Source: Gammaproteobacteria bacterium
Lineage (GTDB): Bacteria; Pseudomonadota; Gammaproteobacteria; JABABF01; JAHRAO01
Direction: 5' to 3'
Assembly (NCBI GenBank): GCA_020027215.1
Contig: JAHRAO010000029.1
Coordinates: 1 to 48,913 of the forward strand
Length of the DNA: 48,913 nt
Shown: piece after piece, positions 23,895-26,248 of the stretch
How the letters are laid out: every line of letters starts with the position of its first letter
Position numbering within the stretch: position 1 is the stretch's first letter
The notes under the pieces: generated by a model
The model's input: the letters and a program-made list of their open reading frames with translations, nothing else
Told to the model about the DNA's origin: nothing
The model's database searches: none
Made by a program: the position numbers and the translations under genes

Positions 23895-23978
23895 GCCAGA
23901 GTGGTGAAATTGGCAGACACGATGGACTCAAAATCCATTGCCCGTAAGGGCGTGCCGGTTCGAGTCCGGCCTCTGGTA
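23895..23978 (+). tRNA. tRNA-Leu (CAA anticodon)
   Basis: A class II tRNA with acceptor GCCAGAG/CTCTGGT (G1-U72 pair), anticodon loop CTCAAAA (CAA, codon UUG), a long variable arm (TGCCCGTAAGGGCGT) and T-arm GCCGG-TTCGAGT-CCGGC. The 3' CCA is not encoded: the discriminator A is followed by TTT. Confidence 0.92.
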
Positions 23979-23994: not shown

Positions 23995-24071
23995 GGCTAC
24001 GTAGCTCAGCAGGTTAGAGCACAGCATTCATAATGCTGGGGTCGGTGGTTCAAATCCACCCGTAGCTACCA
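23995..24071 (+). tRNA. tRNA-Met (CAT anticodon, elongator type)
   Basis: The acceptor is GGCTACG/CGTAGCT with a G1-U72 pair, discriminator A and encoded CCA. The anticodon loop TTCATAA gives CAT. The sequence resembles the E. coli elongator tRNA-Met (GGCTACGTAGCTCAG start). It is 16 bases after tRNA-Leu, so they are probably co-transcribed. Confidence 0.95.
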
Positions 24072-24162: not shown

Positions 24163-24711
24163 ATGAATGATGACATGAATAAAGGATCCACACCACCACC
24201 CGTATTGGTAGTCGATTTAGACGGCACGCTTATTCGCAATGACTTAATGTTGAGTAGTGGGTGGAAACTGTGCAAAAAAAATCCGTTGTATATTTTTCTT
24301 CTATATGGATGGTTGTGCAAGGGGCGCGCATGGACTAAAAATAAAATTGCCGAAAGAGTGCATCTAGATTGGCATTCTTTGTCTTATAATAAAAAATTCC
24401 TCGCGTGGTTGACTGAGCAAAAACGCAATGGACGCATCTTGGTCATGGCGACAGGGAGCTCTCATCTTTATGCGACCACATTAGCAAAGCACTTAAATTT
24501 ATTTGATCATGTGTTGGCAACGCAAAAAGAAAATCTTATCGGCAATTGTAAAGCGGCAGTCCTCACCGAAAAATACGGTAGAGGCGGATTTGATTATGCG
24601 GGCAATAGTCGGCAAGATATCGCGGTGTGGCGCTGTGCCCGTCACGCCATTGCTGTCAATTGTCGCCCCTATTTAGCCAATAAGGTTAGAGCAACATTAT
24701 ATTTTGAATAA
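24163..24711 (+). CDS. Stand-alone HAD-family hydrolase domain, UbiA-fusion type
   Basis: This 182-residue protein carries HAD motif I (VVDLDGTLIRNDL), a motif II Thr (VMATGSS) and a motif IV-like DYAGNSRQD. It matches the N-terminal HAD half of HAD-UbiA fusion proteins, including the AERVHLDWHSLSYN and GLFDHVLAT-like stretches. Those fusions continue into a UbiA prenyltransferase; here the protein ends about where the HAD half would, at 24711, and gpmI begins at 24722. Function is unknown. Codons and composition do not look foreign. Confidence 0.75.
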   Translation: MNDDMNKGSTPPPVLVVDLDGTLIRNDLMLSSGWKLCKKNPLYIFLLYGWLCKGRAWTKNKIAERVHLDWHSLSYNKKFLAWLTEQKRNGRILVMATGSSHLYATTLAKHLNLFDHVLATQKENLIGNCKAAVLTEKYGRGGFDYAGNSRQDIAVWRCARHAIAVNCRPYLANKVRATLYFE

Positions 24712-24721
24712 TCCCCACTCT

Positions 24722-26248
24722 ATGACCAAACCTTACCTTATTGTTATTTTAGACGGCTGGGGATATAGCGAGACACGCGACCATAATGCCATTGCCCATG
24801 CAACGACTCCCGTGTGGGATCACCTCTGGCAATCTGCCCCGCATACTTTAATATCGGCTGCGGGAGAATATGTGGGTCTCCCCCCCCAGCAAATGGGTAA
24901 TTCTGAAATTGGACATACGAATATCGGTGCTGGACGGGTTGTCGCGAATCGTCTTCAACGTATCAATAACGCAATTGACCGCGGGGAGTTGGCGACCAAC
25001 CCAACTTATATACAAGCCTTACAAGCGCTCCACCCCAGCAACACCCTCCATATAATGGGTTTGCTGTCACCGGGAGGGGTGCATAGTCATGAACAACATT
25101 TTTATGCCCTCCTCGATACATGCAAAATGCGCCCAGCAACACCTATTATACGCCTCCATGCATTTTTAGACGGTCGCGACACCCCGCCACGGAGTGCAGA
25201 GAAATCATTAAGGAAGATGCATGAATATTGTTGCCTGTTACCCGATGCGCGTATCGCATCCATTTGTGGACGCTATTATGCTATGGATCGCGATAACCGC
25301 TGGGAACGCACTGAGATGGCTTATCGTTTATTAACTCAAGGAATAGGCGAATATAGTGCCCCTGATCCAGTAGATGCACTCCAGCAGGCATATCAGCGCG
25401 GTGAAAATGATGAATTTGTCAAACCCACGCGCATTGGCGAGCCGGCGGCCATAGAAGACGGTGATTTAGTGATATTTATGAATTTTCGCGCCGACCGCGC
25501 CAAGCAGATCACGCGTGCTTTTATTGAAAATGATTTTTCTCCCTTTGTTCGCCCTCAATGCCCCAATTTAGCACAATTTTTGACTATGGGGGATTACGAT
25601 AAAAATTTTGATGTGCTCTGTGCTTTCCCCGATGAAACCATTCATAATTCACTCGGTGAATATATAGGCGCGTTGGGAAAAACGCAATTACGGATTGCAG
25701 AAACAGAAAAATATGCCCATGTAACCTTCTTTTTTAACGGCGGTAGCGAAGTGTTGTTTGCGGGTGAAGAGCGCAAACTCATCCCGTCACCCCGCGTAGC
25801 GACTTATGATCTACAGCCTGAAATGAGCGCCATTGCGGTGACCGATCATTTGGTTGAGGCAATTCGCGGCAAGCAATATGATCTCATTATTTGTAACTAC
25901 GCTAATGGTGATATGGTGGGGCACACAGGGAACATGGATGCGACAATAAAAGCGGTAGAAACTATAGATCATTGTTTAGGGCGTGTGGTGAGTGCATTGC
26001 GTGATAGCGGAGGGGATGCGATTATTACTGCTGATCATGGTAATTGCGAAAAGATGCTGGATGAAGATAACCAGCAACCGCATACTGCGCATACCTGCTC
26101 ACTTGTTCCGATGATTTATGTTGGCGACCGTTCCCTTTCTTTATCTGATGGGGGGCAGTTATCTGATTTAGCGCCATCTATACTAGCTTTGATGGAAATA
26201 AAGCAACCGGCAGAAATGACCGGACGTTCTTTGATTCGTTTGCCCTAA
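24722..26248 (+). CDS. gpmI: 2,3-bisphosphoglycerate-independent phosphoglycerate mutase
   Basis: GpmI interconverts 3- and 2-phosphoglycerate in glycolysis using two metal ions and a phosphoserine. From the ATG at 24722 (508 residues) the metal ligand D11 lies in VILDGWGYS and the nucleophile S61 in QMGNSEIGHTNIGAGR. Further motifs are HAFLDGRDTPP, CGRYYAMDRDNRWER, FMNFRADRAKQITRAF and TADHGNCEKM. gpmI followed by envC matches E. coli. Confidence 0.97.
   Translation: MTKPYLIVILDGWGYSETRDHNAIAHATTPVWDHLWQSAPHTLISAAGEYVGLPPQQMGNSEIGHTNIGAGRVVANRLQRINNAIDRGELATNPTYIQALQALHPSNTLHIMGLLSPGGVHSHEQHFYALLDTCKMRPATPIIRLHAFLDGRDTPPRSAEKSLRKMHEYCCLLPDARIASICGRYYAMDRDNRWERTEMAYRLLTQGIGEYSAPDPVDALQQAYQRGENDEFVKPTRIGEPAAIEDGDLVIFMNFRADRAKQITRAFIENDFSPFVRPQCPNLAQFLTMGDYDKNFDVLCAFPDETIHNSLGEYIGALGKTQLRIAETEKYAHVTFFFNGGSEVLFAGEERKLIPSPRVATYDLQPEMSAIAVTDHLVEAIRGKQYDLIICNYANGDMVGHTGNMDATIKAVETIDHCLGRVVSALRDSGGDAIITADHGNCEKMLDEDNQQPHTAHTCSLVPMIYVGDRSLSLSDGGQLSDLAPSILALMEIKQPAEMTGRSLIRLP

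Follow-up and report, generated by a model that had tools for sequence, protein, structure and literature searches.

A stand-alone HAD phosphatase related to HAD-UbiA fusions in a reduced gammaproteobacterial genome: a candidate phosphatidylglycerophosphate phosphatase

What does the phosphatase half of a HAD-UbiA fusion protein do when its prenyltransferase half is gone? This question is raised by a gene at positions 24163 to 24711 (+ strand) of the window, by which we mean the whole 48,913-nucleotide stretch of gammaproteobacterial DNA analyzed here (contig JAHRAO010000029.1; genome G000 in our set). Most known relatives of its product form half of an enzyme for the synthesis of a lipid-linked ribose. 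In the HAD-UbiA protein ORF15 of C. youngae, according to the portion of the published account on which we draw, the UbiA half transfers ribose-5-phosphate from PRPP onto polyprenyl phosphate; the product, polyprenyl-phospho-ribose-5-phosphate, then loses its 5'-phosphate through the HAD half (PMC11127046). The same portion reports that membranes with the ORF15 D18A mutant yield farnesylP-Ribf-5-P, with some residual dephosphorylation remaining, and that in mycobacteria the same 5'-phosphate step is ascribed to a phosphatase with no relationship to HADs (PMC11127046). What the fused HAD has been shown to do requires the product made by the prenyltransferase half. A HAD that stands alone and intact, with its partner absent and with sequence constraint in one pair of genomes (G225 and G109), clearly exemplifies a domain set free from a fusion, and such a domain has probably been given other work.

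The open reading frame encodes a protein of 182 amino acids between an ATG start and a TAA stop. Its best NCBIfam model is NF006088/PRK08238, the model of HAD-UbiA fusions (E 1.6e-49, 168.9 bits), matched across profile positions 8-177 of 482; the score falls under the family cut-off of 351, as expected, because the UbiA half is missing. Pfam places the protein in PF12710 (HAD; 35 bits versus a cut-off of 27), the general HAD-IB models TIGR01490 and TIGR01488 score 21.3 and 19.3 bits on it, and neither TIGR00338 (SerB) nor any PgpC-named model is among its NCBIfam matches at E up to 1. The fold and motifs of the window HAD recur in SerB and other HAD-IB phosphatases, but the sequence models of these proteins reach only about 20 bits, and an ordinary SerB-like HAD was rejected on this contrast. 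The sequence-only reading had identified the protein as the HAD half of HAD-UbiA fusions, and the model scores agree; the closer match to SerB-like or CicA-like hydrolases that it had named as contrary evidence was looked for and not seen in the NCBIfam comparison. The window HAD retains the HAD half of the fusions, including conserved residues and cap, at up to 45% identity over its full length.

Four residues, D18, D20, K130, and D152, are invariant in all 99 aligned rows. The first two form the D-x-D of motif I (24214..24222, + strand), where we take them, from general knowledge of HADs, to serve as nucleophile and acid/base; the nucleophile of ORF15 is likewise numbered D18. Thr97 (24451..24453), nearly invariant in the alignment, is presumably HAD motif II, Lys130 (24550..24552) motif III, and the stretch from Asn148 to Asp152 (24604..24618) motif IV, all on the + strand. 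Among 103 rows labelled as UbiA-fused, motif IV has the GN form in 74, GD in 21, and GG in 1, with the pattern not found in 7; we therefore rejected Asn148 as a mark of inactivation or decay, GN being the commonest form among the fused proteins themselves. The alignment behind the AlphaFold model and the family profile took in 98 of the 118 relatives, 19 having been removed by manual thinning and one because of a stop. The model has a mean pLDDT of 94.8 and displays a HAD core with a three-helix cap at residues 28-65 (24244..24357, + strand; helices 28-39, 43-53, and 55-65), and the cap consensus of the HAD alignment carries the family pattern PLxxFxxPxWLxxGKAxLK. No sequence relative was found in the PDB at E up to 1. 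Structure searches with the predicted model returned general HAD matches, the best in the PDB being SerB proteins, 3fvv (of unknown function), and MtnX, and PgpC was not among the matches listed, which carries no weight against a relationship. The E value and the conserved catalytic columns exclude a chance match. From open reading frame, Pfam, NCBIfam, and AlphaFold together, the gene is a stand-alone homologue of the NF006088 HAD half, and its product belongs, as a complete HAD phosphatase, to the phosphoribosyl-phosphatase (PRP) type, with catalysis predicted.

Where the UbiA half would sit, another gene begins. The ATG of gpmI (24722..26248, + strand; iPGM domains in Pfam) lies 10 bases past the HAD stop codon, and a possible TTG start at 24704 is also offered for the gpmI frame, so there is no space for a UbiA half. 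Upstream are tRNA-Leu (23895-23978) and tRNA-Met (23995..24071, + strand), and a gene that we read from its translation as EnvC-like is near. A tblastn search of the window with two fusion UbiA halves found no significant remnant; its best match, near 15.7-15.9 kb, had an E value of only 0.033 and was rejected as such. The prenyltransferase half is thus absent beside the HAD gene, just as had been claimed from the sequence.

It had also been suggested that the UbiA gene might lie elsewhere in the genome, which the evidence does not support. The genome (1,528,806 bases, 46 contigs, 97% complete) contains two UbiA-family genes by PF01040 search, one of which is CyoE (TIGR01473, 315 bits versus a cut-off of 210) and the other the 4-hydroxybenzoate UbiA (TIGR01474, 326 bits versus a cut-off of 275); with both so classed, we rejected a fusion-type partner elsewhere in this 97%-complete assembly. 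Searching the same genome with NF006088 gave three matches, the best of which is the window HAD itself (3.6e-49). A DprE1-like query taken from G016 likewise had no match in G000, while the same query recovered hits in the fusion-bearing genomes G016 (2.5e-304, the query source), G046 (1.1e-111), and G013 (2.7e-78); the co-occurrence of DprE1 with the fusion is seen in these three and may not be universal. Unlike the HAD-UbiA systems typified by ORF15, then, the window HAD has no UbiA half, no DprE1 match in its genome, and no adjoining pathway genes.

The window HAD is not a solitary case. A scan of 369 sampled genomes of the class with NF006088 placed 44 above the cut-off, a few of them through the UbiA half or a shortened fusion. 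Counting the stronger matches listed, with at most four candidates scored per genome, HAD-only genes occur in at least six of the 369 genomes (G000, G165, G324, G225, G109, and G254), which represent four families and are all about 1.7 Mb or less; G001, the only other genome compared from the window's order, is without the HAD gene. The neighborhoods, as we read them from translations, are not the same: in G165 the HAD gene is near rlmJ and pyrG, in the family of G324, G225, and G109 it is near uvrC and an ABC-F gene, and in G254 it is near a bacterioferritin-like gene.

The origin of such genes is most clearly displayed by G165 and by G016, which carries the same genus code. At its rlmJ locus, G016 has a 340-residue fusion that ends inside UbiA; by tblastn, its UbiA half extends for only the initial 90 residues or so, and the NF006088 match reaches position 353 of 482, across a stop. 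In three trees of the HAD domain, a phylogeny that the sequence-only reading had proposed as a check, the G165 HAD-only gene and the truncated G016 fusion are sisters with high support (99*, 99*, and 100/99*). No other evidence speaks as strongly as this pair for an origin of HAD-only genes from fusions. The number of such origins, one or several, is undecided: the three trees need 4, 3, and 3 changes to the HAD-only state, with starred branches forcing at least two, and the AU tests do not reject a single clade of HAD-only and truncated rows (p 0.744 in the second tree set, where the one-clade tree is better than the free tree by 26 log units, and p 0.248 in the 62-row set). These trees are to be read with their sampling. 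L037 was dropped from the first and left out of the later ones, the long-branched L046 of G254 was left out of the second and third trees and of the AU tests, and the third tree and its AU test used 62 of 119 rows, hand-chosen and without L047, with bootstrap values that had not converged.

In the one pair for which dN/dS was computed, G225 versus G109, the HAD-only gene has a value of 0.11, beside 0.096 for the adjoining ABC-F gene and 0.055 for uvrC; the HAD-only gene is therefore maintained in these two genomes. The proposal that a fusion lost its second half and that the HAD part was kept for its own use accordingly stands in part. It is favored by the truncation pair, by the recurrence of HAD-only genes, and by this low ratio, and for G000 itself the loss is something that we infer.

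UbiA is not the only partner of this HAD. Among the best 80 loci in a scan of named genomes, HAD and UbiA share one frame in 71 and HAD and Lnt in 9 (L082, L083, L084, L085, L094, L098, L107, L129, and L132). The nine HAD-Lnt frames are 742-826 residues long, all match apolipoprotein N-acyltransferase (TIGR00546, 271-291 bits, cut-off 133), and they belong to Verrucomicrobiota wherever the record gives a group. Their HAD is of the same family (NF006088 E 2e-60 or better), carries the GN form of motif IV in all nine, as does the window HAD, and is up to 52% identical to it in the best segment; it differs in being joined to apolipoprotein N-acyltransferase. As a module, the HAD family is therefore found attached to membrane enzymes of two kinds.

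Our preferred reading, to which we give a probability of roughly 0.35, is that the window HAD is a fusion-type phosphatase freed from HAD-UbiA and reused as a phosphatidylglycerophosphate (PGP) phosphatase. The protein would descend from, or be close kin of, the part of the HAD-UbiA polyprenyl-phosphate phosphoribosyltransferases that forms their N-terminal half. Two components of the lipid-linked pentose pathway, the fusion-type UbiA and DprE1, were not found in the reduced genome; the HAD would have been retained and would hydrolyze a different phosphate ester without a partner, probably at the surface of the membrane. PGP made by the PgsA of G000 would be the likeliest substrate, with the HAD replacing the missing PgpA and PgpB. 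We infer the fusion origin of this gene, its activity, its action at the membrane, and its PGP substrate alike. If the reading is true, a candidate gene is named for an essential lipid step, the last in phosphatidylglycerol synthesis.

The distribution of the known PGP phosphatases bears on this reading. PgpA (PF04608), one of the usual PGP phosphatases, has no match in any of the six HAD-only genomes or in G016, and it is present in 295 of the 369 class genomes, including G001, which belongs to the window's order and is without the HAD. Its absence from all six has a hypergeometric p of 5.5e-5 (369 genomes, the six representing four families). Among class genomes of 1.7 Mb or less, 29 of 61 are without PgpA, by hand-compiled lists that include incomplete genomes, and p for six of six is then about 0.009; the association is weaker still because the six genomes represent only four families. 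G007, in which a HAD fragment at a contig end cannot be assigned to a class, has PgpA. Conversely, 68 of the 74 PgpA-less genomes, including G350 with the family code of G254, have no HAD-only gene among the matches listed, and other solutions must therefore be common. PAP2 (PF01569, which includes PgpB) has no match in G000, G324, G254, or G001 and is present in G016, G165, G225, and G109. These last four may therefore need no new PGP phosphatase, and since G001 also is without PAP2, its absence from G000 is not special. G000 does have PgsA (TIGR00560, 170 bits versus a cut-off of 109) and should therefore make PGP. Besides the window HAD, PF12710 matches three HADs in G000: SerB and ThrH, which exceed their cut-offs, and a MupP/phosphoglycolate-phosphatase-like protein, which does not. 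Elimination within the families searched (PF04608, PF01569, and PF12710) leaves the window HAD as a good candidate for the PGP phosphatase.

The comparison with PgpC is more equivocal. E. coli PgpC is likewise a small HAD-like protein, and the profile alignment pairs the cap element PL...GKA of the family with its PL...KGRA, but its cap is longer and the profile similarity is weak: by hhalign the family profile matches PgpC at 86% (E 4.9e-6), SerB at 94.8% (E 5.3e-8), and a HolPase-like HAD at 78%. The PgpC match is no better than that of SerB, and sequence therefore does not decide the substrate. PgpC is described, in the part of the report drawn on here, as Mg-dependent and PGP-specific, and the combined loss of PgpA, PgpB, and PgpC in E. 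coli as lethal (PMC8027125). The consulted portion of the Candidatus Berkiella genome paper reports pgpA, pgpB, and pgpC all missing (PMC9803151). The JCVI-syn3A paper, in the part drawn on, names a pgpA. The literature on HAD-type PGP phosphatases, HAD-Lnt fusions, and PRP domains yielded nothing further of relevance. We advance only tentatively, and as rather doubtful, the wider proposition that a phosphatase derived from the fusion, and recurring among reduced gammaproteobacterial genomes, was recruited as a new class of PGP phosphatase, filling in some of them a step without a recognized gene.

Other work can be envisioned for a freed HAD. It may be a housekeeping phosphatase unconnected with lipids, acting on a soluble metabolite from, for example, the pathways of cofactors, nucleotides, or sugars. 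HADs switch substrate easily, small genomes need few but broad phosphatases, and the predicted fold is that of a general HAD, with SerB proteins, 3fvv, and MtnX as its nearest structures; the cap, however, retains the hydrophobic pattern of the family, and the fusion partners among the best 80 loci, UbiA and Lnt alike, are membrane enzymes. We regard this explanation as possible without thinking it probable. An unchanged activity is less plausible, and on balance unlikely: the HAD would still dephosphorylate a ribose-5-phosphate group, attached now by a different phosphoribosyltransferase, for instance a glycan phosphoribosyltransferase (gPRT), with the partner alone having changed. The window HAD retains the family's conserved residues, and PRP domains also pair with gPRT domains in the part of the published account drawn on here (PMC11127046), but neither a fusion-type UbiA nor DprE1 was found in G000, and the neighbors of the gene read as tRNAs, gpmI, and an EnvC-like gene rather than as glycan genes.

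The same missing partners, together with the position of the HAD gene alone between tRNAs and gpmI, would suit a functionless remnant of a lost fusion. The frame is open, however, with every conserved catalytic residue intact, and HAD-only forms occur in four families with a dN/dS well below one in the pair G225/G109, so that we hold a remnant to be quite improbable. Reuse as a PGP phosphatase remains our working explanation for the window HAD.

The fusions and HAD-only genes surveyed vary in ways that merit record. G016 has two loci, L006:1012-2034 and L051:5950-7440, one an intact HAD-UbiA and the other a fusion cut inside UbiA; downstream of the intact fusion are genes that score 414 bits with the DprE1 model and 172 bits with the DprE2 model, in each case short of the cut-off (500 and 250, respectively). 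In G046 (L010:577-2046), HAD (198 amino acids) and UbiA (270 amino acids) are separate open reading frames and the fusion match contains a TAG, so that this fusion is split or interrupted; a DprE1-like gene lies close to it. G109 has two UbiA-family matches beyond the usual two (C1:693377-694072 and 1415938-1416336). The HAD-only proteins of G225 and G109 (L047:5972-6607 and L048:5804-6439) carry roughly 29 extra residues ahead of the LFD motif, an insert that is absent in G324 of the same family code.
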